Notes under the pieces: generated by a model
Seen by the model: only the letters and a program-made list of their open reading frames with translations
Told to the model about the DNA's origin: nothing
Database searches by the model: none
Made by a program: the position numbers and the translations under genes
Part shown: positions 6,547-23,788 of the stretch, piece by piece
Numbering within the stretch: position 1 is the stretch's first letter
Layout: every line of letters begins with the position of its first letter
DNA from: a virus
IMG/VR virus record: IMGVR_UViG_3300024306_000413
Location: 1-25,258 of that record
Length of the DNA: 25,258 nucleotides
Strand: one strand, 5' to 3'

Positions 6547-7754
6547 ATGAAGAAGCGCAACTACACACAAGACACAGTCCGCAAGTTACAAGGCTCATTA
6601 CAAATTGAGCATACTTTAGCCAAACGTGGTGCAACCAAACTACGTGAGTTACTAGCAACAGAACCATACGTTAACACGCTAGGAGCGTACAGCGGCCAAC
6701 AAGCCGTACAACACGCCAAAGCAGGACTCAAAGCAATTTATCTATCAGGCTGGCAAGTGGCCGCAGCCGCAAATACAGCAGGACAAACATATCCTGATCA
6801 AAGTTTATATCCAGTAAATTCAGTGCCCACAATCGTTAAGCAAATCAATAATGCGTTCCGTCGTGCCGATCAAATCGAACACAGTGAAGGCAATTTAACA
6901 ACAGATTATTTCTTGCCAATTGTAGCTGACGCAGAAGCAGGTTTTGGTGGCGCATTAAACGCATATGAACTTATGATGGCTATGATCGAAGCAGGCGCCG
7001 CAGGCGTACACTTTGAAGATCAACTATCTAGCGAAAAGAAATGTGGACACTTAGGCGGTAAGGTTTTAATTCCCACTAGCCAAGCTATTCGTAACCTACA
7101 GGCCGCACGTCTTGCTAGCGATGTAGCAGGAGTAGAAACAGTTATTATGGCACGTACCGACGCAGAGTCTGCTACACTTATTACCAGCAATCACGATCCA
7201 TTGGACAAGGACTTTATTATTGATGAACGCACTGACGAAGGCTTTTACAAATTTAAAAACGGGCTTGATGCTTGTATTAGCAGAGGTCTTGCTTATGCCC
7301 CTTACGCTGATCTCCTTTGGTTCGAAACTAGCACACCTGATATCGCACAGGCTAGAAAGTTTGCTGAAGCGATCCGTGCCCAGTATCCTGATCAAATGCT
7401 TGCTTATAATTGCAGTCCTAGTTTTAATTGGCAAAAGTTTTTAAGCATTGAAGAATGTGAAACATTCCAACGTGAATTAGGTGCGTTAGGCTATAAGTTT
7501 CAGTTCATTACACTAGCAGGATTCCATTCAGTAACCTTGCTACATTTGAATTAGCAGAAGCCTATAAACAACGTGGTATGGCTGGGTATTCAGAAATGCA
7601 ACAGCGTGAGTTTGAAGCACAGGCTCGTGGCTTTACAACAGTTAAACATCAACGTGAAGTTGGCGTTGGTTACTTTGATTTGATTAGTGAAGCAGTTGGT
7701 GCTACATCAACAGTTGCTAATAAGTCCAGCACAGAGGCAGATCAGTTCCACTAA
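6547..7754 (+). pseudogene. aceA: Isocitrate lyase, interrupted by a one-base frameshift
   Basis: Isocitrate lyase splits isocitrate into glyoxylate and succinate, the entry step of the glyoxylate shunt. The first frame (6547-7554, 335 residues) has the family landmarks: [12 protein letters not shown] near 65-76, [12 protein letters not shown] (124-135), the catalytic loop KKCGHLGGK (164-172) with Cys166, and [10 protein letters not shown] (288-297). At codon 329 the frame breaks. Shifting one base back from position 7533 restores [20 protein letters not shown], then VKHQREVGVGYFD and a C-terminal DQFH ending at TAA 7752-7754, for 402 residues in all. One missing A in the GTAACC tract explains it. 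It is either a sequencing or assembly indel or a real recent lesion; no canonical slippery heptamer is seen. The gene is shorter at the N-terminus than enterobacterial AceA and has a strong ribosome binding site. Confidence 0.9.
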
Positions 7755-7761: not shown

Positions 7762-8466
7762 ATGGAAATTATTTTAGCAACGTTAGTGATGACGCACATC
7801 ACAATAGTGTGCGTCACACTATACCTGCATCGTGGACAGGCTCATAGAGGCATAACCTTTAATTTTATATTTGAACATCTAATACGTTTTTGGTTATGGC
7901 TTACTACTGGTATGGTCACAAAACAATGGGTGGCGATACATCGTAAGCATCACAGATTTAGTGATGAACAAGGCGACCCGCATAGTCCGCACGTATACGG
8001 TATTTGGCGTGTGTTGTTTAAAGGTGCTGTATTATATCATACTGCAAGTAAAGATTCTGAAATGATTCAACAATACGGAGTTGGTACTCCGGATGATTGG
8101 ATCGAACGTAATTTGTATACCCCACACAGTCGCTGGGGGATTCTCTTAATGTTGGTCATAGACCTTGTTCTTTTTGGACCTGTAGGACTAGTAGTTTGGG
8201 GTATACAAATGCTTTGGATTCCTTTCTGGGCAGCAGGAGTTATCAACGGAGTAGGACATTGGTATGGATATAAAAACGGAATTAGCAATGATCGTAGTCG
8301 CAATATTAGTCCTTGGGGTATTATCATTGGTGGGGAAGAGCTTCATAACAATCATCACCTTAGCCCAGCAAGTCCTAAACTAAGCCGTCGATGGTTTGAG
8401 TTTGACATTGGTTGGATGTGGTTAAGTTTGTTTAGAGTTTTAAGGATAGCTGAATTAAGGAAGTAA
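7762..8466 (+). CDS. Membrane acyl-lipid/acyl-CoA desaturase
   Basis: This 234-residue membrane protein carries the three histidine boxes of the diiron fatty acid desaturases: HRGQAH (23-28), HRKHH (60-64) and HNNHH (195-199), plus NGVGHWYGY with His166. Hydrophobic segments lie near 1-20, 38-55, 126-147 and 150-163. It would introduce a cis double bond into fatty acyl chains in the inner membrane, altering fluidity. It is shorter than many bacterial delta-9 desaturases but lacks no His box. The start follows the restored lyase stop by seven bases without a good ribosome binding site, so coupling to lyase translation is likely. The next gene begins one base after its stop. Confidence 0.88.
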   Translation: MEIILATLVMTHITIVCVTLYLHRGQAHRGITFNFIFEHLIRFWLWLTTGMVTKQWVAIHRKHHRFSDEQGDPHSPHVYGIWRVLFKGAVLYHTASKDSEMIQQYGVGTPDDWIERNLYTPHSRWGILLMLVIDLVLFGPVGLVVWGIQMLWIPFWAAGVINGVGHWYGYKNGISNDRSRNISPWGIIIGGEELHNNHHLSPASPKLSRRWFEFDIGWMWLSLFRVLRIAELRK

Positions 8467-9115: not shown

Positions 9116-9397
9116 TTATTTCTTCACGCCGTTGTTAACAAATGCGTACATTTTTTCGGCGGTTTCTAATACTTTATCTAGGCCTGGGAATTCAGGCATA
9201 CCTACCTTAGTTACAATTTGACCAGTCTTTTCATCACGTTCTGCTGTTAATTCCCAACCTTGGAACTTAACGTGGAAGTCTTGAGAAACAAGCTCTTTAG
9301 CCATTTCTAAGATTTCTGTACGGATTTCATAACCGTTTTTGTTGAATTTAACTTCTGGTGTTTTCATTTCTGGTGTTTTAAAAAATTCATTAGACAT
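9116..9397 (-). CDS. Conserved small phage protein of unknown function
   Basis: This minus-strand gene encodes 93 residues with AAGGAG upstream of the start. The core FNKNGYEIRTEILEMAKELV (residues 18-37) is followed by FPGLDKVLETAEKMYAFVNN. I remember similar NGYEIR-type small proteins in T4-like cyanophages, where no function is known; this is recollection, not a search. It is the last gene of a four-gene minus-strand group and ends next to the bidirectional terminator. Confidence 0.7.
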   Translation of the reverse strand: MSNEFFKTPEMKTPEVKFNKNGYEIRTEILEMAKELVSQDFHVKFQGWELTAERDEKTGQIVTKVGMPEFPGLDKVLETAEKMYAFVNNGVKK

Positions 9398-9441
9398 AAT
9401 TTTCTCCTTGTGTGTGTTTGTGTCTATATCCGTTAGGTGGA

Positions 9442-9654
9442 TTAGGCCTTCTTTGGAAACAATACACTAGCGTATGCGTCCGTAGAATATTTAGCAAGAT
9501 CAATAGCGTTTTGGCTAACGGTCTTAGCAAAAGCTGTTTGTGCATCGATTAAGTCTAGTACAGATTGTTTGATAACCTTGTCAGTTACAACTGTATTGAC
9601 AAAAACACGCTTGGTGTTTTGATATGCTTCAATAAATGAATCTGGTGTGAACAT
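9442..9654 (-). CDS. Small helical protein, phasin-like
   Basis: The 70 residues are almost entirely amphipathic helix. The stretch IDAQTAFAKTVSQNAIDLAK (36-55) has the spacing of Ala, Phe and polar residues typical of phasins, which coat polyhydroxyalkanoate granules. The match is short and based only on pattern, so a generic coiled helical protein is equally possible. GAGGAG gives a strong ribosome binding site, and a host-type promoter lies 27 bases upstream. It lies in the same minus-strand group as the NGYEIR-type protein. Confidence 0.55.
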   Translation of the reverse strand: MFTPDSFIEAYQNTKRVFVNTVVTDKVIKQSVLDLIDAQTAFAKTVSQNAIDLAKYSTDAYASVLFPKKA

Positions 9655-10179: not shown

Positions 10180-10461
10180 ATGAAATTAAGAACTAGGTCA
10201 ATCCTGCAAGAATTGAACGAAATAGCAGAAGTCCGTAACAAGGACTCGCTGTTTGAAAGTCGCGCCGTTAACATTATTAATTCAGCTATTAATCTTTTGG
10301 AAAGTATTCATAAGAACTATACGCCAGAACAAGCTGATGAGCTAGAGCGCCGCTTAATTAATGCTATCCGTGGACAAGATGCAGCAAAGTTTACACGCGG
10401 TATTCGTAAAATAGCAGAATCACGCAAAGTTAATAAACCATTAGATTCAAATGACGAATAA
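10180..10461 (+). CDS. Small helical protein with capsid-targeting-like N-terminus
   Basis: The product has 93 residues from ATG 10180 (MKLRTRSILQELNEIAEV). A TTG two codons earlier is possible but less likely. It is highly charged and all helical, with SILQE near the N-terminus as a weak prohead-protease-like site and ERRLINAIRGQDAAKFTRGI later. No domain is recognised. It opens the operon, ends 11 bases inside the next gene, and is preceded by both a host-type and a late-type promoter. Confidence 0.6.
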   Translation: MKLRTRSILQELNEIAEVRNKDSLFESRAVNIINSAINLLESIHKNYTPEQADELERRLINAIRGQDAAKFTRGIRKIAESRKVNKPLDSNDE

Positions 10462-11263
10462 ATTATTTGAGGGCGGAAACGTATTCAAAGGCCCAGACAA
10501 ACAACCTTTAACGCAGCGTATTGCTACGGGAGATGTTCCAGCCACTATTGCTTTTATCGAAAAAGTAACAGGACTAGACTTCACCAAAGAATTAGATCCT
10601 CACGATAAAAAACCTGTAAAATGGCTAGGTACAACTGGACGTAAAGAGCATCCAGACGGAACTTTTGAATTAAACAGTTCTGGAGATTTAGATTTATCAG
10701 TTGACGCTAACGAAGTAGACAAGAAAGAATTTGCTACAAAACTAGCACAACAATTTGGCAAAGACAGCGTAAAATTAAGTGGCGATTCTGTACACTTAAA
10801 GACACCAATTAAAGGTGACGAAGCCAACGGATTTGTACAAGCAGACTTTATGTTCTCTAACAATCCTAAGTTCCAGCAAGGAAGTATGATTGGTGGGCAG
10901 GGACAGTATCGAGGAGAGCATCGCCATATTGTTCTAAGTTCTATTGCTCGTGCAAGAGGAATGAAATATAGTCCTAAGTTTGGTCTAGTTGATCCAGAAA
11001 CAAATGAACCTGTTAAAGGTGGAGATGATTGGAATACTATTGCTAAACAGTTGTTAGGTCAAACCGCAACAGTTAAAGATATTCGTTCCGTTGATGCTAT
11101 CATTAATTACATTAAAAAATTACCTAACTATGACGAATTAGTCAGTGCTGCTCGTGAAACACTAGGGCGTTCAGGAATTGAACTTCCACAGAAAGAATCA
11201 TTAGAGCACTACACACCTAACAGTCCAAGTTGGATGCGCAAAATTATGGATATGGTAAAATGA
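10451..11263 (+). CDS. Nucleotidyltransferase-fold protein (predicted)
   Basis: This 270-residue soluble protein shows the minimal nucleotidyltransferase pattern. Gly60 lies in LGTTGRKE, the two-Asp motif SSGDLDLSV has Asp79 and Asp81, and FVQADFMF with Asp132 fits the third metal ligand. This family transfers nucleotides to RNA, proteins or small molecules, but the substrate cannot be read here. The remaining sequence is mixed, with HRHIVLSSIARARG near 155-170 and a C-terminus PSWMRKIMDMVK. It overlaps the upstream gene by 11 bases and the downstream gene by ATGA. Its N-terminus is less like the capsid-targeting type than those of its neighbours. Confidence 0.6.
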   Translation: MTNKLFEGGNVFKGPDKQPLTQRIATGDVPATIAFIEKVTGLDFTKELDPHDKKPVKWLGTTGRKEHPDGTFELNSSGDLDLSVDANEVDKKEFATKLAQQFGKDSVKLSGDSVHLKTPIKGDEANGFVQADFMFSNNPKFQQGSMIGGQGQYRGEHRHIVLSSIARARGMKYSPKFGLVDPETNEPVKGGDDWNTIAKQLLGQTATVKDIRSVDAIINYIKKLPNYDELVSAARETLGRSGIELPQKESLEHYTPNSPSWMRKIMDMVK

Positions 11264-12093
11264 GAATAACCGACATTCTAATAGAATCTAAAAAAACTCT
11301 TAAGAACAGTAACCCTTGCTGGAAAGGATATCATCCAGTAGGTACAAAGAAGAAGGGCGGCAAGACTGTGCCTAACTGTGTGCCAGAGGCTGCTAATCCT
11401 GCTCAACAGGCTGCAATCGCAGTTAATATGAAAAAGCAAGGTAAGAAACCTAAGAATGAAGCATTTGATGATGCAGAATATAATGATGAATCCGGAATGG
11501 CTCAAAACAGCCTACACACTATTCATAGAGCCGCAGTAGGTTTATCTAAGTTAATCAAAGACGGAGAGAACCTCCCAGAATGGGTACAGGAAAAATTATC
11601 CATTGCTGAAGATTATATGCAGACAGTTTGGGATTATCTAGAGAGCGAGCACGAAATGAGCCACACTCCTGAAAGTCTAGAACTAGAACAAGACTTTGAT
11701 CTTATTGAATCAATCATTGAAGACATTGCAGAAAGCAACGGTGTAGACCCAGAAGTAGTTTGGGAAGATCTAGAATCCTTAACAGATGACGAGCTATATG
11801 TATTTGCTGTTACTTCTCAACTAAACGAAGATTGGCAAAAGGTTAATAAGAAAGACAAAACAGACGGTATGAGCCGTAAGGCTGTAAAGGCCTATCGTAG
11901 AGAAAATCCAGGTAGTAAGTTAAAGACTGCGGTAACCACAAAGCCAAGCAAACTTAAAAAAGGTAGCAAGGCCAGCAAGCGCCGTAAGAGCTACTGTTCT
12001 CGTTCACGTGGACAAATGAAAATGCACAGCATCAGCTGTGCCAAGACACCAGACAAGGCAATCTGTAAGGCACGCCGTCGTTGGAACTGCTAA
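11260..12093 (+). CDS. Modular basic virion-type protein (DUF6321-like C-terminus)
   Basis: The product has 277 residues from ATG 11260, coupled by ATGA to the gene before. The order is: a capsid-targeting-like start MRITDILIES (Ile-Glu-Ser site); a Cys-containing module NPCWKGYHPVGTKKKGG (18-34) ending VPNCVPE; an acidic helical middle (about 60-185); and a very basic C-terminal domain from residue 191, with GMSRKAVKAYRRENPGSKL, TTKPSKLKKGSKASKRRKSY and a terminal KARRRWNC. The last domain recurs in aquatic phage proteins that I recall as DUF6321; its charge suggests nucleic acid binding. The likely role is a head-internal or DNA-associated protein. Confidence 0.7.
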   Translation: MRITDILIESKKTLKNSNPCWKGYHPVGTKKKGGKTVPNCVPEAANPAQQAAIAVNMKKQGKKPKNEAFDDAEYNDESGMAQNSLHTIHRAAVGLSKLIKDGENLPEWVQEKLSIAEDYMQTVWDYLESEHEMSHTPESLELEQDFDLIESIIEDIAESNGVDPEVVWEDLESLTDDELYVFAVTSQLNEDWQKVNKKDKTDGMSRKAVKAYRRENPGSKLKTAVTTKPSKLKKGSKASKRRKSYCSRSRGQMKMHSISCAKTPDKAICKARRRWNC

Positions 12094-12293
12094 TGAGAGC
12101 CAGTGAGTTTGTCATTGAAAATTTTGCCGATGGAAAGGTAAAGGGAAAGAGCCGCCCCGGTCGTGTCAAACGTTCTGGTGCTAGCTGTTCTGGATCAGTG
12201 ACAGATCTACGCAAACGTGCAAAAAATGCAAGTGGTGAAAAGGCTAAAATGTATCATTGGTGTGCTAATATGAAGTCAGGAAAAAGTAAATGA
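12093..12293 (+). CDS. Small basic protein with capsid-targeting-like N-terminus
   Basis: The 66 residues are coupled upstream by TAATG and downstream by ATGA. After MRASEFVIEN comes a basic module GKSRPGRVKRSGASCSGSV, then TDLRKRAKNASGEKAKMYHW and a final CANMKSGKSK. I associate this short module with several marine phage structural proteins, from memory. It has two Cys and a strong positive charge, fitting DNA contact inside the head. Translation from an upstream in-frame ATG at 12081 would start inside the previous gene and is unlikely. Confidence 0.65.
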   Translation: MRASEFVIENFADGKVKGKSRPGRVKRSGASCSGSVTDLRKRAKNASGEKAKMYHWCANMKSGKSK

Positions 12294-13657
12294 GAGCTTT
12301 TGAGTTTTTGATAGAATCAAAACCTGGTAAACAGGCTATGAGCTACAAGCGTAGTAATAGATATCCTGACGGCAGTGATATTCCTGACAGCTTACCCGAT
12401 AGGTATCAGCCAGCGTCAAATCCGGGAGTGCCTGCGCAACAAAAATGTAGCAATTGCGGCTACTATGATAGTAAAACTAAGAAGTGTGACAAGTTCAAAG
12501 GTGAGCCTGTGGTCAAACCTGCTTATTGGTGTGCCAAGTGGGAACCTTATAAAGAAACTGTAACAGAAGCCGAAGCACCTGTACCTAAGAAAGTAGGTCG
12601 TGAGTTTAATCACCTAGAAGATCTAGTGTTTACAGAACACGGTGGTGCCAAACGTGCTGTTGAAGTTTTAAAAAGTCTAGCATCTGATGCTAAAGATGTT
12701 TCTATCAAGTGGGACGGTAATCCAACTGTCTATTGGGGCAGAGACGAAGATGGTACCTTCCGTATGGTAGGTAAAAATAACTGGGGTCGTGAAGAAGGTA
12801 AGAGTTCTAACCCAGAAGAGCTCAAGCAGTTTATCCTAAGTCGCGGCAAAGGAGAAGACTGGCGTGAGAAATTTGCTGGTGATATGGCTAGCCTATGGCC
12901 TATCTTTGAAAAGGGAACTCCCAAAGATTTTAGAGGTTATATCTATGGTGATATCTTGTTCCATCCTGGAAAACCTTATGACAGTGGTAATGGTAAAATT
13001 AATTTTACCCCTAATCAAACTACATATTCAGTTAGAGCAACAAGTCCAGTTGGCGTAAGATTGGGTAAGGCTAAGGTAGCTATTGCTGCTCACAAACATT
13101 TAGATTATTTTGGTGACAAGACTGGAGATGATCTAACAGATGTTAAGGCTCTTAATGTCAGTCCAGAACTTGTAGTGTTTGGACAAACCTATGTAGCACA
13201 TCAACCTGCGGTAAATGCAGACAATCTAGGTGTAATTGAAAAATTAGCCAACCAAGTTGGCCCTAAAATTGATCAACTATTAGCACCTGTTGCAGGCCTA
13301 AGCGATCTACAGACAATCATCTATACCTTTGTAAACAATCAGTCAAAGGCCAAAGCCTTAGATAAAATAGACACAAACAGTTTCTTTCAGTGGCTACAGG
13401 GCAGCAAAGTCAGTGCTCCAAAACAGGCTAAGATTGCTGAATTAAACAAGGCCAACGCAGGTGTAATGGATAATATGTTTCATTTAGTGCGCGAATTAAT
13501 GAAAGCCAAAGACGAAATTATTCGTGAACTAGATGCTGCCGAAGGCGATATTACTGCACACACTGGCGGAAAACCAGGCGGTGAGGGTTATATGCACACA
13601 GGACACGGTGTTAAGCTAGTTCCACGTGATCGTTGGACCCCATTTAGAGCCGATTAA
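12290..13657 (+). CDS. Ligase-like covalent nucleotidyltransferase with Cys-cluster module
   Basis: This 455-residue protein has three parts. First is a capsid-targeting-like start, MRAFEFLIES. Next, residues 53-81 carry four Cys (53, 56, 66, 81) in CSNCGYYD...KKCDKF...YWCAKWEP, recalling high-potential iron-sulfur proteins. From about 100 on comes a nucleotidyltransferase core: SIKWDGNPTVYW with Lys140 fits ligase motif I (KxDG); DFRGYIYGDILF (213-224) fits motif III; EGYMHTGHGVKLVPR (432-446) fits motifs IV and V. DNA or RNA ligases use this lysine to carry AMP. The spacing between motifs III and IV is long, implying an inserted domain. If packaged, it could repair nicks at injection. Family assignment is motif-based and moderate. 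Confidence 0.6.
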   Translation: MRAFEFLIESKPGKQAMSYKRSNRYPDGSDIPDSLPDRYQPASNPGVPAQQKCSNCGYYDSKTKKCDKFKGEPVVKPAYWCAKWEPYKETVTEAEAPVPKKVGREFNHLEDLVFTEHGGAKRAVEVLKSLASDAKDVSIKWDGNPTVYWGRDEDGTFRMVGKNNWGREEGKSSNPEELKQFILSRGKGEDWREKFAGDMASLWPIFEKGTPKDFRGYIYGDILFHPGKPYDSGNGKINFTPNQTTYSVRATSPVGVRLGKAKVAIAAHKHLDYFGDKTGDDLTDVKALNVSPELVVFGQTYVAHQPAVNADNLGVIEKLANQVGPKIDQLLAPVAGLSDLQTIIYTFVNNQSKAKALDKIDTNSFFQWLQGSKVSAPKQAKIAELNKANAGVMDNMFHLVRELMKAKDEIIRELDAAEGDITAHTGGKPGGEGYMHTGHGVKLVPRDRWTPFRAD

Positions 13658-15811: not shown

Positions 15812-17311
15812 ATGAAAACTACAGACCTTTTTAAATCAAATAGATCATCTAAAAAGATCAATGAATCGATGGAAAAATTATTCGGTACAAAGCTAGATTT
15901 TGCTAGTTTTGATGTACCAAAGTTGGAAGATGCTCGTAATAAGCTACGTACACAATTAAGTCAAGTTCGTTCAGGCAGCGGATTTAATGAAAATATTGAA
16001 AATGAAGCAGTAGCACAAGCTCAGTGGATGTTAGACGCTATCAATGCTGAAATTGCAGAACGTGCAGAGTTTATTGTTGATCCAAGCGTTGCTGAAGTTA
16101 GCACAGATGAAGGATTTGGGTCTTTAGAAGATGAAGTTATGCAACTTCTAAAAAGGTTTGACGAAAATGCCAACGAAATTGGCGCTTACGGAGATCTAGA
16201 CGCTAAAAAAATTGTCGAACTATTAAGACAAGGTGACTTTGAAGGCGCAGCAGAAGAAGTATGGTACGCATACAGTGACCAAGACGGTGGCGAAGTTCCA
16301 CGAATTGAACCGTATGTTGAAGACCTACAAGCAGAATTTGAAGCACTTGCTCAAGGCGGTGACGAAGACGAGGGTGGAGATACAGACGATGCTTATGCTC
16401 TAGCATCAGCAGGACACGGTTCAGATGAAGACTACGGTAGTTTTGGCTACGACGAAGAGTATCAAGCAGAAGATGCTGACGAGGAAACTAAAGCAGCTCA
16501 CAATGCTGGATATAAAGATGCTTCTCAAGGAAAGAAAAAGAATCCATACAATCCCGGATCACCGTCGGCAAAACACTACGATGACGGACAGGATTCATAT
16601 AAAAGACACTTTGGTGAAGGTACTGTATCAGAAAAAGCACCTCCAGGAGCCAAAGCAGAACGTATGGTAAAACATATTAAAAAAGGTTATGCCAAAGATG
16701 GCAAACTAACCGATAAAGAAAAAAGCATTGCGTATGCTACCGCTTGGAAGCAACACAACAAAGAAAAGAACGAGTCAACAGAATCAGGAGAAGATATGAC
16801 TAAACTAAACGAAGGCGAAGTACAACAGGCCAGTGCTATCGTTACAGCAAAAACTATGGTCGACAGAGTTAGCCGTTGGATCGAAGAACTATCTGGCATG
16901 GAGAACGACACACTTCTACAGCTAGGCGATTCTATCCGCGATGAAATGGGACAAGAACAGGCTAAGGCATTTATTAGCCAGTGTGCTCCGGCTATTCAGC
17001 AGGCATTGGAAAACTTAAAATCCACACGCGATACATTAAGTACCAGTGTTCGTTCATTGGCCAGTGGAGAGCAGCCAACAGATATGCTAGGCGGTGAGCC
17101 AGGTGCAGATATGGGAGCTGGAGACGAAATGGGTCCTGCTGAGCCAGATATGATGAATACAGGCGGAGACGAAAGTGGACTAGATGCTCTAGCAGGTGGC
17201 GACGAGTTTGGCGCAAGCGATGCAGCAGCTGGCGGATTAGAAGCAGCTGGACGTGAACAGCGTGAAAGCATTGATCGTAGCAACAGTCTATTAAGAGTAT
17301 TAGCAGGTTAA
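15812..17311 (+). CDS. Large acidic modular protein with capsid-targeting-like N-terminus
   Basis: The product has 499 residues. After MKTTDLFKSN, and KKINES at 14-19, come helical segments and then a strongly acidic stretch (183-225). A module at 228-266 has the AHNAGYKDASQG and KHYDDGQDSYKR pattern, which recalls ribosome modulation factor. Next is a basic module ending IAYATAWKQHNKE (305-317) that I know from other phage structural proteins. The last third has a helical part and a Gly/Asp/Met-rich low-complexity tail (about 415-480). The overall acidity and modular build suit a head core or scaffold-type or internal protein, but no single assignment is safe. It is coupled by TAATG to the next gene. 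Confidence 0.65.
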   Translation: MKTTDLFKSNRSSKKINESMEKLFGTKLDFASFDVPKLEDARNKLRTQLSQVRSGSGFNENIENEAVAQAQWMLDAINAEIAERAEFIVDPSVAEVSTDEGFGSLEDEVMQLLKRFDENANEIGAYGDLDAKKIVELLRQGDFEGAAEEVWYAYSDQDGGEVPRIEPYVEDLQAEFEALAQGGDEDEGGDTDDAYALASAGHGSDEDYGSFGYDEEYQAEDADEETKAAHNAGYKDASQGKKKNPYNPGSPSAKHYDDGQDSYKRHFGEGTVSEKAPPGAKAERMVKHIKKGYAKDGKLTDKEKSIAYATAWKQHNKEKNESTESGEDMTKLNEGEVQQASAIVTAKTMVDRVSRWIEELSGMENDTLLQLGDSIRDEMGQEQAKAFISQCAPAIQQALENLKSTRDTLSTSVRSLASGEQPTDMLGGEPGADMGAGDEMGPAEPDMMNTGGDESGLDALAGGDEFGASDAAAGGLEAAGREQRESIDRSNSLLRVLAG

Positions 17312-17586
17312 TGAAACTTTTTAACATCATTAGTGAACGTGAAATGTCCAGGTTAGCTGAACTCGATGCTCCTATGCTTGGACAACAGCCTGCTGGACAG
17401 CCTGGCGCACAGCCAATGACTCCTGCACAGGATCCTCAGGCACAGGCTAAACTTCAAGCACAACAAGTAAAACAACTAGCTGATCAAAGAAAACAAATTC
17501 AAGATGCTATCAAACAAAAGCAACAAGAATTAGTAGATCTACAAAAACAGTTATCTAGTTTAAATTCTCCATCGGGTGGTGTATAA
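17311..17586 (+). CDS. Small coiled-coil protein with capsid-targeting-like N-terminus
   Basis: The 91 residues begin MKLFNIISER, followed by a Gln/Pro/Ala-rich linker (25-50) and a long Gln/Lys coiled coil (50-82: KQLADQRKQIQDAIKQKQQE). Starts and stops overlap on both sides (TAATG). The coiled coil suggests self-association or partner binding. No family is recognised. Confidence 0.6.
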   Translation: MKLFNIISEREMSRLAELDAPMLGQQPAGQPGAQPMTPAQDPQAQAKLQAQQVKQLADQRKQIQDAIKQKQQELVDLQKQLSSLNSPSGGV

Positions 17587-20773: not shown

Positions 20774-23107
20774 ATGAGCATCACAGTTATTAAACGCAGC
20801 GGAAACAAAGAACCATTAGCAGTTGAAAAATGGCAAGCCCAAGTAGCTAAAGTTTGTAAAGGCATTGCAGACGTTAGCCAGTCAATGATAGAAATTAAAG
20901 CCCAACCACATTTCTATGACGGTATTACTACAGAAGAGATTGATGGAATTACACTTAGAGCAATAGTTGATCTAATTGATATTGAACATAATCCAGATGT
21001 AGGTCACACTAACTATCAGTACGTAGCAGGCAAACAACGTCTTTCGATGTTGAGAAAGGATGTTTACGGAGACTACGAGCCTCCCCACCTTTACGACATT
21101 GTTAAGAAAAATGTTTCTGTTGGATTATATACTCCAGAACTTCTTGAATGGTATTCAGAAGATGACTGGAATAAAATGAATGATATGCTAGATCATTCTA
21201 AAGATGAAGAATACAGTTACGCAGCTATTGAGCAATTGATCGAAAAGTATCTCGTGCGTAACCGAGCTACTAAGGAGATCTATGAAACACCACAAGTTCG
21301 TTATATGGTTGCTGCCGCGACTGTCTTCCATAAAGAAGAACCTAATGCAGCCCGTATGCGTTACATCAAAGAGTATTACAACGCGGCTTCAGATGGTTTG
21401 TTTACTCTTGCTACACCTGTGTTGGCTGGCCTTGGCACTCCAACTAAGCAGTTTTCTAGTTGTGTGCTTATCCGCAGTGACGACGATCTGGATAGCATAT
21501 TTGCTTCTGGGGAGATGATGGCCAAGTATGCCAGCAAACGTGCTGGCATCGGTTTAGAGATTGGACGACTACGTCCATTAGGTTCGCCTATTCGAGGTGG
21601 CGAAATTATGCACACAGGTATGATACCATTCCTGAAAAAATGGTTCGGTGATTTAAGGAGTTGTTCACAAGGTGGAATTCGTAATGCATCTGCTACTGTC
21701 TTTTATCCCATTTGGCATCATCAGTTTGATGATCTCATTGTTCTCAAGAACAACCAAGGTACAGAAGAGACACGAGTTAGACACATGGACTACGGGGTCG
21801 TGTTGTCGTCATTCTTCTGGAGAAGATTTAAGAACAAAGAAAATATAACTTTCTTTGATCCAAATGAAGTGCCAGATCTATATGAAGCATTTTACAGCAA
21901 CACAGAACGATTTGAAGAACTATATGTAAAATACGAAAAGCAAAAAGGTTTACGTAAAAAAACAATGTCAGCTGAAGAAGTATTCAAGTCCGGCATTCTT
22001 AAGGAGCGTACAGATACAGGTCGCATCTATTTGGTGTTTATTGATAATGTTATGAATCAAGGACCTTTTGATCCTGAATATCATACCATCTATCAAAGTA
22101 ACCTGTGCTGTGAGATCTTATTACCAACCCGTCCATTTAAGAGATTAGACGACGAGGAGGGACGCATAGCGTTATGTACACTGGGATCCATTAACTGGGG
22201 TGCGTTCCGAAACCCAGAAGATATGCGTAGAGCGTGTCGAATCTTACAACGTAGTCTTTGCAACATTTTAGATTATCAAGATTTCCTAAGTATTCAATCT
22301 AAACTAAGCAACGACGAAATTCAACCACTAGGTATTGGTATTACTAACCTTGCCTATTGGCACGCTAAAAGAGGAATGAAATATGGCGACAAAGACGCAC
22401 TGGCGGAAGTTAAAGTTTGGATGGAGCATCAGGCCTTTTACCTTACAGAAGCAACAGTTGAACTTGCCAAGGAAAGAGGCAAGTGTAAAGACAGCGACCG
22501 AACAAGATACGGTCAAGGGATCTTCCCTTGGGAAAGAAGAGCCCAAGGTGTTAACGAACTTACTGACTTTACTCCAGAACTCGATTGGGAAACTCTTAGA
22601 AAAGAAATGAAAACACACGGTGTTCGAAACGCTACCTTAATGGCTGTAGCACCTGTAGAGTCTAGTTCAGTTGTTATTAATTCAACCAACGGTATTGAAA
22701 TGCCGATGAGTTTAATTTCAACTAAAGAATCCAAAGCTGGCTCGTTTACACAAGTGGTTCCAGAATATAATAGACTTAAGAATAAGTATCAGTTGATGTG
22801 GGATCAAACAGACTGCCAAGGTTATCTAAAGACTGCGGCTGTTTTAGCAGCGTATGTTGATCAAAGTATTTCAACAAACACATTCTACAATCCAGCACAT
22901 TTCCCAGAACGCAAAGTTCCAACTACACTAATTGCTAAGAACTTGATGCAGGCACAGTTGTGGGGTATTAAGACTTTCTACTATAGTCTAATCAATAAGC
23001 AAGGCGCCAAACACGAGGACAAGACTCCCGAAGTACACTATAACGGTTTCTATGAAAGAGAAGCTGAAACAAGTATTGAAGAAGATTGTGAGGCCTGTAA
23101 ACTATGA
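20774..23107 (+). CDS. nrdA: Class Ia ribonucleotide reductase, large subunit
   Basis: This 777-residue enzyme reduces ribonucleoside diphosphates to deoxy forms for phage DNA synthesis. An ATP-cone-like regulatory region is at the N-terminus (1-90). The catalytic residues are in place: Cys230 in KQFSSCVL and Cys468 in ALCTLGSIN form the redox pair, and the NLCCEI segment (443-448) gives Asn443, Cys445 and Glu447. The C-terminal tail ends DCEACKL, with Cys772 and Cys775 as the shuttle to glutaredoxin. The length and motifs are those of a complete class Ia protein. Its stop overlaps the next gene as ATGA, so reductase and iron-sulfur genes are translated together. Confidence 0.95.
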   Translation: MSITVIKRSGNKEPLAVEKWQAQVAKVCKGIADVSQSMIEIKAQPHFYDGITTEEIDGITLRAIVDLIDIEHNPDVGHTNYQYVAGKQRLSMLRKDVYGDYEPPHLYDIVKKNVSVGLYTPELLEWYSEDDWNKMNDMLDHSKDEEYSYAAIEQLIEKYLVRNRATKEIYETPQVRYMVAAATVFHKEEPNAARMRYIKEYYNAASDGLFTLATPVLAGLGTPTKQFSSCVLIRSDDDLDSIFASGEMMAKYASKRAGIGLEIGRLRPLGSPIRGGEIMHTGMIPFLKKWFGDLRSCSQGGIRNASATVFYPIWHHQFDDLIVLKNNQGTEETRVRHMDYGVVLSSFFWRRFKNKENITFFDPNEVPDLYEAFYSNTERFEELYVKYEKQKGLRKKTMSAEEVFKSGILKERTDTGRIYLVFIDNVMNQGPFDPEYHTIYQSNLCCEILLPTRPFKRLDDEEGRIALCTLGSINWGAFRNPEDMRRACRILQRSLCNILDYQDFLSIQSKLSNDEIQPLGIGITNLAYWHAKRGMKYGDKDALAEVKVWMEHQAFYLTEATVELAKERGKCKDSDRTRYGQGIFPWERRAQGVNELTDFTPELDWETLRKEMKTHGVRNATLMAVAPVESSSVVINSTNGIEMPMSLISTKESKAGSFTQVVPEYNRLKNKYQLMWDQTDCQGYLKTAAVLAAYVDQSISTNTFYNPAHFPERKVPTTLIAKNLMQAQLWGIKTFYYSLINKQGAKHEDKTPEVHYNGFYEREAETSIEEDCEACKL

Positions 23108-23511
23108 GTTACTCAGACAAAGTAATCGACCATTATGAGAATCCTCGAAATGTAGGTAGCTTTTCTAAAGATGAACAAGGAGTAGGCACAGGTATGGTCG
23201 GTGCACCTGCTTGTGGTGACGTAATGAAGCTACAAATTAAAGTAGACGAAACCACAGGAATTATTCAAGATGCCAAATTTAAAACGTATGGTTGTGGAAG
23301 CGCGATTGCGTCGAGTTCGCTCGTTACTGAATGGCTCAAAGGAAGAACGCTTGACGAAGCGCAACAGATTAAGAATAGCGAAATTGCTACTGAGCTTGCC
23401 CTCCCCCCTGTTAAGATTCATTGTTCGATACTTGCAGAAGATGCGATCAAAGCGGCCGTAAATGATTACCGTAACAGACAAAGCCAAAACAAAGATCAAG
23501 CACTTGCTTAA
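23104..23511 (+). CDS. iscU: Iron-sulfur cluster scaffold IscU
   Basis: This 135-residue protein is a full-length IscU, the scaffold on which [2Fe-2S] clusters are built from cysteine desulfurase sulfur. The three ligand Cys are present: Cys37 with Asp39 in [10 protein letters not shown], Cys64 in TYGCGSAIA, and Cys107 in IHCSIL. The HscA-recognition motif LPPVK is at 100-104. It is strikingly similar to the beta/gammaproteobacterial protein as I remember it, which suggests fairly recent acquisition from a bacterium. It starts inside the nrdA stop, and its 3' end overlaps the iscA gene by 50 bases in another frame. No IscS, HscA or ferredoxin gene is in the window, so host partners would be needed. 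Confidence 0.93.
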
Positions 23512-23788
23512 GAATAGAGGCAAGGGTGTAGGAATTCGACTAGCAGTTAAAACTACTGGTTGCAGTGGTTTGGCATATGTGTTAGAATATGTAGACGAGT
23601 ATGAAGCAGAAGTTGGAGTTACAAATTTTGCTACAGATGATTTTGTAATATTAGTAGATGCAAAGTCTTTAGTATATCTAGACGGATTAACTATAGACTG
23701 GGTAAAAAATGGATTAAATGAAGGGTTTGATTTTGTTAACCCAAATGAACGTGACCGTTGTGGTTGCGGAGAAAGTTTTAGAGTATAA
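23462..23788 (+). CDS. iscA: A-type iron-sulfur carrier (IscA/ErpA/HesB family)
   Basis: The 108 residues have the A-type carrier ligands: Cys34 in [10 protein letters not shown], and Cys100 with Cys102 in the C-terminal CGCGESFRV. The protein carries iron or clusters from the scaffold to apo-proteins. It begins within iscU and is followed two bases later by nrdB, so it lies between the two reductase subunits. IscA, ErpA and SufA cannot be told apart by sequence alone; the gene symbol reflects its position next to iscU. No ribosome binding site is obvious, fitting coupled translation. Confidence 0.88.

Follow-up and report, generated by a model that had tools for sequence, protein, structure and literature searches.

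We analyzed a gene near the middle of a viral DNA sequence of 25,258 nucleotides (IMG/VR record IMGVR_UViG_3300024306_000413; the window). The reading frame at 12290..13657 (+ strand) is open, begins with ATG, and encodes a protein of 455 amino acids. Its start overlaps the stop of the upstream gene (12081/12093..12293) by 4 nt. From the N-terminus on, the protein consists of a tag of nine residues, a four-cysteine module (residues 18-86, approximately), and a core (approximately residues 108-450) that belongs to the Pfam family DUF6267 (PF19782). This is not a chance reading frame, as it has relatives on 230 viral contigs and matches DUF6267 with E = 4.7e-17. A preliminary description had listed MRAFEFLIES, cysteines at 53, 56, 66, and 81, a KxDG motif at Lys140, and later motifs like those of nucleotidyltransferases. 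All of these are in the translation, with MRAFEFLIES at the N-terminus and KWDG at Lys140. The features of the gene and its tagged or enzyme-like neighbors are:

10451..11263, + strand: upstream protein that looks by eye like a Pol-beta-like nucleotidyltransferase (SSGDLDLSVD)
11260..12093, + strand: upstream DUF6321 protein with the tag MRITDILIE|S
12081/12093..12293, + strand: upstream small basic protein with the tag MRASEFVIE|N
12290..13657, + strand: the whole gene (tag, HiPIP-like module, and DUF6267 core)
12290..12316, + strand: capsid-targeting-like tag MRAFEFLIE, with predicted cleavage after Glu9 (L-I-E|S) by the rules for T4 (PMC9026906)
12341..12547, + strand: HiPIP-like four-cysteine module (residues 18-86), inserted by comparison with close relatives
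12446..12532, + strand: codons for Cys53, Cys56, Cys66, and Cys81 (C-x2-C-x9-C-x14-C-x2-W)
12611..13639, + strand: DUF6267 core, residues 108-450, a predicted covalent nucleotidyltransferase
12707..12718, + strand: motif I, KWDG (within IKWDGNP), with Lys140 as the candidate nucleotidylated residue
12773..12775, + strand: invariant Lys162, the putative counterpart of Lys119 of T4 Rnl1 by spacing (22 versus 20 residues past the lysine of motif I)
12947..12961, + strand: motif III-like GDILF (220-224), with Gly220-Asp221 invariant
13091..13093, + strand: invariant His268, on the strand 263-271, at the position of motif IIIa
13217..13537, + strand: helical region, residues 310-416, between motifs IIIa and IV, unlike T4 Rnl1
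13583..13594, + strand: motif IV, EGYM (432-435), with Glu432-Gly433
13613..13621, + strand: motif V, KLV, with Lys442 (VKLV is 441-444)
17311..17586, + strand: another tagged gene, MKLFNIISE|R

The core scores 62.8 bits against DUF6267, versus a gathering cutoff of 27. Typical members of the family have E-values of 1e-100 and below (down to 1e-121), versus 4.7e-17 for the window's protein. DUF6267 is found in 465 records for isolated phages, and the gene is carried by marine and freshwater phages. Among the best 80 of the relatives on 230 contigs, nearly all align from residue 89 onward only. A literature search on DUF6267 found nothing, and a search of NCBIfam gave no match to a ligase.

Across 77 diverse members of DUF6267, the residues H108, G119, K140, W141, D142, G143, P145, K162, G220, D221, and H268 are invariant, and E432, G433, and K442 are at least 90% conserved. 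The ordered signature KxDG...K...GD...EG...K is nearly invariant throughout the family. From their order and kind, we take K140-W-D-G, K162, G220-D221, H268, E432-G433, and K442 to be motifs I, Ia, III, IIIa, IV, and V of DNA ligases, RNA ligases, and capping enzymes. DUF6267 departs from this set in having Asp instead of Glu in motif III and in missing the second lysine of motif V (KLV). Motifs IV-V of typical members read EGFVAVDKSGNAVKLVDR, and the counterpart in T4 Rnl1 is EGYVAVMKDGSHFKIKSDW. If the anchor residues are excluded, the flanks of motifs IV-V are more like Rnl1 than are 99.7% of other offsets (P = 0.003). The same comparison for the flanks of motif I gave no likeness to Rnl1 or Rnl2.

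Structure prediction and comparison with ligases had been suggested as a check. In the AlphaFold2 model of the window's protein, most of the core has pLDDT above 90 and the N-terminus is unordered. When we compared this model to the PDB with Foldseek, T4 Rnl1 ranked first (E = 5e-3), followed by an archaeal RNA ligase, LIG4, T4 DNA ligase, DNA ligase III, T4 Rnl2, and others, but no match reached E = 1e-3. The non-ligase entries high in this list were mostly CorA chains. Among the BFVD matches that have a name and are not DUF6267, a viral RNA ligase and an RNA ligase 2 of a phage ranked first. The model for a relative (L105) is better (pLDDT of 90 and pTM of 0.86). Its comparison to the PDB was noisy, with nothing significant: RNA ligases were the highest-probability matches displayed, while carbonic anhydrases and CorA had better E-values. 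With hhalign, the alignment of DUF6267 to Rnl1 had a probability of 1% and included motifs IV-V alone, and there was no alignment to Rnl2; locally, the profile matches Rnl1 best in precisely the motif IV-V block. A profile search for homologs among PDB sequences returned coiled-coil-type noise, which we discarded.

Overall, the catalytic signature of DUF6267 looks good at the level of motifs and only suggestive at the level of fold. The earlier proposal of a ligase-like enzyme is partly supported: ordered, conserved motifs speak for it, as does the ranking of ligases for the first model, but no fold or profile match is significant. Since Foldseek and hhalign found nothing significant, we consider a ligase-like nature to be likely from the motifs and unproven from the fold: the core is likely, not proven, to be a covalent nucleotidyltransferase, and probably an RNA-ligase-like one.

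The N-terminus suggests where the protein goes. Internal proteins of phage T4 are packaged via N-terminal sequences, gp21 cuts after L/I-x-E, and residues 4 and 7 chiefly set the targeting (PMC9026906). MRAFEFLIE|S has the form of a T4 capsid-targeting sequence (a short hydrophobic or aromatic N-terminal peptide that ends in L/I-x-E) and matches the pattern of MKTYQEFIAE from IPII/IPIII, although it is one residue shorter. Of the matches to close relatives, all 81 have a tag like this one, with 18 different spellings. More distant lineages of DUF6267 spell the pattern differently (MFSFKQFLTE, MYSFKQYLSE, MDFTTFITE, MIDFKEFLLE, or MLIEDVLTE), and the DUF6267 proteins of the isolates Melnitz, C48C1, and DLP6 have it as well. 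The strict pattern is expected just 0.03 times per 240 shuffled ORFs, and it occurs in this gene. Other genes in the window are also tagged, including the two directly upstream and others nearby. On a tree of 84 DUF6267 cores, the tag label requires 7 changes, and the main untagged clade is from cyanophages. These results strongly support the preliminary description's claim of a head-targeting tag, and packaging in the head appears to be better supported than the ligase-like identity.

A gp21-type prohead protease is encoded in all 7 of the isolate genomes that we checked, including those of Melnitz, C48C1, and DLP6, whose DUF6267 proteins are tagged. On contigs from the window's own clade, all of which are fragments, gp21, gp23, and gp20 were not detected. 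This includes a large one of 163263 bases (G001, the contig of L051), which encodes a T4-like clamp-loader-like protein as well as tagged genes; its head module is either absent from the contig or very divergent. We found no detection of any DUF6267 protein in virions by proteomics. The cytidylyltransferase T4-GC190 has been detected in cyanophage virions (PMC3037559; PMC10665884). The gene for T4-GC190 adjoins DUF6267 in cyanophages, and in two contigs a like domain (CTP_transf_like, which is NMNAT-like) is fused to the C-terminus of DUF6267 (L180:3980-5773 and L193:3983-5770). Synechococcus phage S-PM2 has a similar fusion (A0A0M6VVW4).

The clusters of related phages can include NMNAT-like domains (in Melnitz, with the tag MKKFSEIIE), Pol-beta-like domains, and kinase domains of the zeta-toxin/AAA_33 type. 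In two contigs, a single protein of 780-835 amino acids, encoded close to DUF6267, has Pol-beta-like, NMNAT-like, and HiPIP-like domains (L150:6317-8821 and L187:6111-8450). In the window, the protein at 10451..11263, with its Pol-beta-like look, had no library match; its counterpart is at the same place in G001 (162116-162925). The cluster around DUF6267 looks like a set for nucleic-acid end repair, and it is reminiscent of the cassettes with RNA ligase and RlaP that have been described in jumbo phages (PMC7824862). In cyanophages, the DUF6267 gene is near the replication genes uvsX and gp41 and near mazG. Farther upstream in the window, we noticed by eye an isocitrate-lyase/PEP-mutase-like protein, a fatty-acid desaturase-like protein, and two phasin-like proteins (6547-7554, 7762-8466, and 9116-9654), and these may point to genes for the lipid or polyester metabolism of the host.

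The cysteine module has the pattern C-x2-C-x9-C-x14-C, with V-x3-Y-W-C-x2-W. If the module is cut out, it matches Pfam's HIPIP family (PF01355) with 24.4 bits (E = 3.6e-5), just past the cutoff of 22; the full-length protein scores 19.9 bits, which is below the cutoff. The best PDB sequence matches of the module are HiPIPs, with weak E-values. Thus, the description of the cysteine pattern as HiPIP-like receives moderate support. It was also correct that such a cluster is unusual in a ligase-like protein: within DUF6267, the module is confined to the window's phage population (it is identical in five other contigs), and the combination of tag, HiPIP-like module, and DUF6267 core occurs in that one population. 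A literature search on HiPIPs and phages found nothing relevant.

Homologs of the module stand alone in the Pelagibacter phages HTVC026P and HTVC111P and in the contigs L115/L116. (In an alignment that we discarded, a KWD in these stand-alone proteins was misaligned as motif I.) The module is also a domain of the L150/L187 proteins and of the annotated prohead protease of Pontimonas phage phiPsal1, where it lies near the N-terminus (L199:1330-2784). In close relatives of the window's protein, the tag is joined to the core directly or via a different small Cys/Lys-rich module, KWSxKYKRSINCSxPKGFSQKAHCAGRKK. This other module follows the tag of DUF6267 or of its upstream neighbor in L042, L045, L049, L059, L064, and L075, and in the upstream gene of L029. 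It seems as if small modules shuffle among tagged proteins.

The preliminary description had also linked the cysteine module to genes for iron-sulfur assembly. The window does encode IscU/NifU_N-like and IscA-like proteins (23104-23788), between nrdA-like (20774) and nrdB-like (23791) genes. However, the relatives G001 and G011 have a NifU_N/IscU gene as well, and their ligase-like protein lacks the module, so we reject this link.

Taken together, this DUF6267 gene probably encodes a ligase-like nucleotidyltransferase that is packaged in the head and that, in this one phage population, carries a HiPIP-like insertion. We give a probability of roughly 0.6 to the whole of our best explanation, which is that this is a head-packaged, RNA-ligase-like covalent nucleotidyltransferase. 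Judging from the tag, the nonapeptide would bind the prohead core, a T4-type prohead protease would cut after Glu9, and the enzyme would stay in the head until it is ejected together with the DNA. Judging from the conserved motifs, ATP or NAD+ would then nucleotidylate Lys140, in a pocket formed by Lys162, Asp221, Glu432, and Lys442, and the AMP would be handed to a 5'-phosphate end so that the strand could be sealed. Of these parts, packaging in the head is very probable and covalent nucleotidyl transfer is likely, while we lean only slightly towards the sealing of ends. If the enzyme does seal ends, then RNA (such as host or phage tRNA that was cut by defense nucleases) is a slightly likelier substrate than nicked DNA, given that T4 Rnl1 is the closest likeness and that the neighbors recall RNA-repair cassettes. 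The HiPIP-like module would be a dispensable and recently inserted add-on. It probably, by a modest margin of belief, binds a [4Fe-4S] cluster, and it might sense redox or help hold nucleic acid.

The enzyme might instead be a covalent nucleotidyltransferase that does not seal strands and, with an NMNAT-like partner, modifies RNA ends (as in capping), proteins, or small molecules. DUF6267 is fused or adjacent to CTP_transf_like/NMNAT-like domains, motif V has one lysine instead of two, and no nucleic-acid-binding domain was recognized in the protein. But RNA ligases have the best likeness in both structure and motifs, and the Pol-beta-like and kinase domains in some clusters resemble a system that repairs nucleic-acid ends. 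We think that this alternative is unlikely. It is less likely still that the protein is an internal head protein or a DNA-binding structural protein that has lost catalysis, with motifs that are a relic or a coincidence. Several small basic neighbors do carry packaging tags, and the fold comparison was not significant, but no residues in the family are more conserved than those of catalytic type, and without chemistry this would be hard to explain.

We give slightly less weight again to the idea that the enzyme acts in the infected cell and that its N-terminal motif does not serve for packaging. The cyanophage clade manages without the tag, and its gene is near uvsX, gp41, and mazG; yet all close relatives retain the tag's pattern despite differences in its sequence, and unrelated proteins of adjacent genes have it too. 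As for the cysteines, it is quite possible, if somewhat less probable than an iron-sulfur center, that they bind zinc and form a small module for contacting nucleic acids or proteins. Zinc-ribbon-type ribosomal proteins are among the weak PDB sequence matches, no redox role is known for the module's relatives, which are small phage proteins, and sister proteins have other small Cys/Lys-rich modules at the same place. On the other side, HiPIPs are the top matches in both PDB and Pfam, and a CxxC with two single cysteines and a C-terminal YWCxxW is HiPIP-like, unlike two zinc knuckles.

If our preferred reading of a packaged ligase is correct, then these phages could mend nucleic acids within the first seconds of infection, ahead of gene expression. 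This would be relevant to the survival of T4-like phages in the face of defenses that nick, restrict, or cut tRNA. It would also give a function to a family that has had none until now and that is carried by hundreds of sequenced phages from the sea and from fresh water. The tag's pattern may offer a simple means of listing the injected proteins of uncultured phages. A bolder idea, which we consider rather doubtful, is that DUF6267 proteins are widespread and unrecognized covalent nucleotidyltransferases, which numerous T4-like phages load into the head with other nucleotide-transfer enzymes (NMNAT-like, Pol-beta-like, and kinase) as an injected kit for repair or counter-defense, and that the ligase in this population is controlled by a HiPIP-type iron-sulfur module.

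How does this protein compare to known systems? Its core belongs to DUF6267, for which Pfam records no function, and it adds the tag and the cysteine module. Like T4 RNA ligase 1 (RnlA, gp63), which was the top PDB fold match of the first model, it has KxDG and a downstream lysine at a similar spacing, and typical DUF6267 proteins have EGYVAV followed by a lysine 13 residues on (10 in the window's protein). Unlike Rnl1, it has a helical region between motifs IIIa and IV and has KLV instead of KIK; there is no significant sequence relation between Rnl1 and DUF6267, and Rnl1 is not known to be packaged in the head. The tag is like the short, propeptide-like N-termini of T4's internal proteins and Alt (M-K/R-x-aromatic...[LI]-x-E), but it has 9 residues instead of 10 and the cargo is a ligase-like enzyme. 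The module shares its cysteine spacing and the V-x3-Y-W-C-x2-W segment with HiPIPs and passes Pfam's cutoff when cut out, but it is shorter, it would be in the cytoplasm or the virion, and an aromatic residue replaces the usual glycine before the last cysteine. Finally, as in RNA-repair cassettes with the Pol-beta protein RlaP and an RNA ligase (PMC7824862), in some phages the ligase-like gene is beside genes for a Pol-beta-like nucleotidyltransferase and a kinase, but the proteins in the DUF6267 clusters are from different families and their genes are head-tagged.
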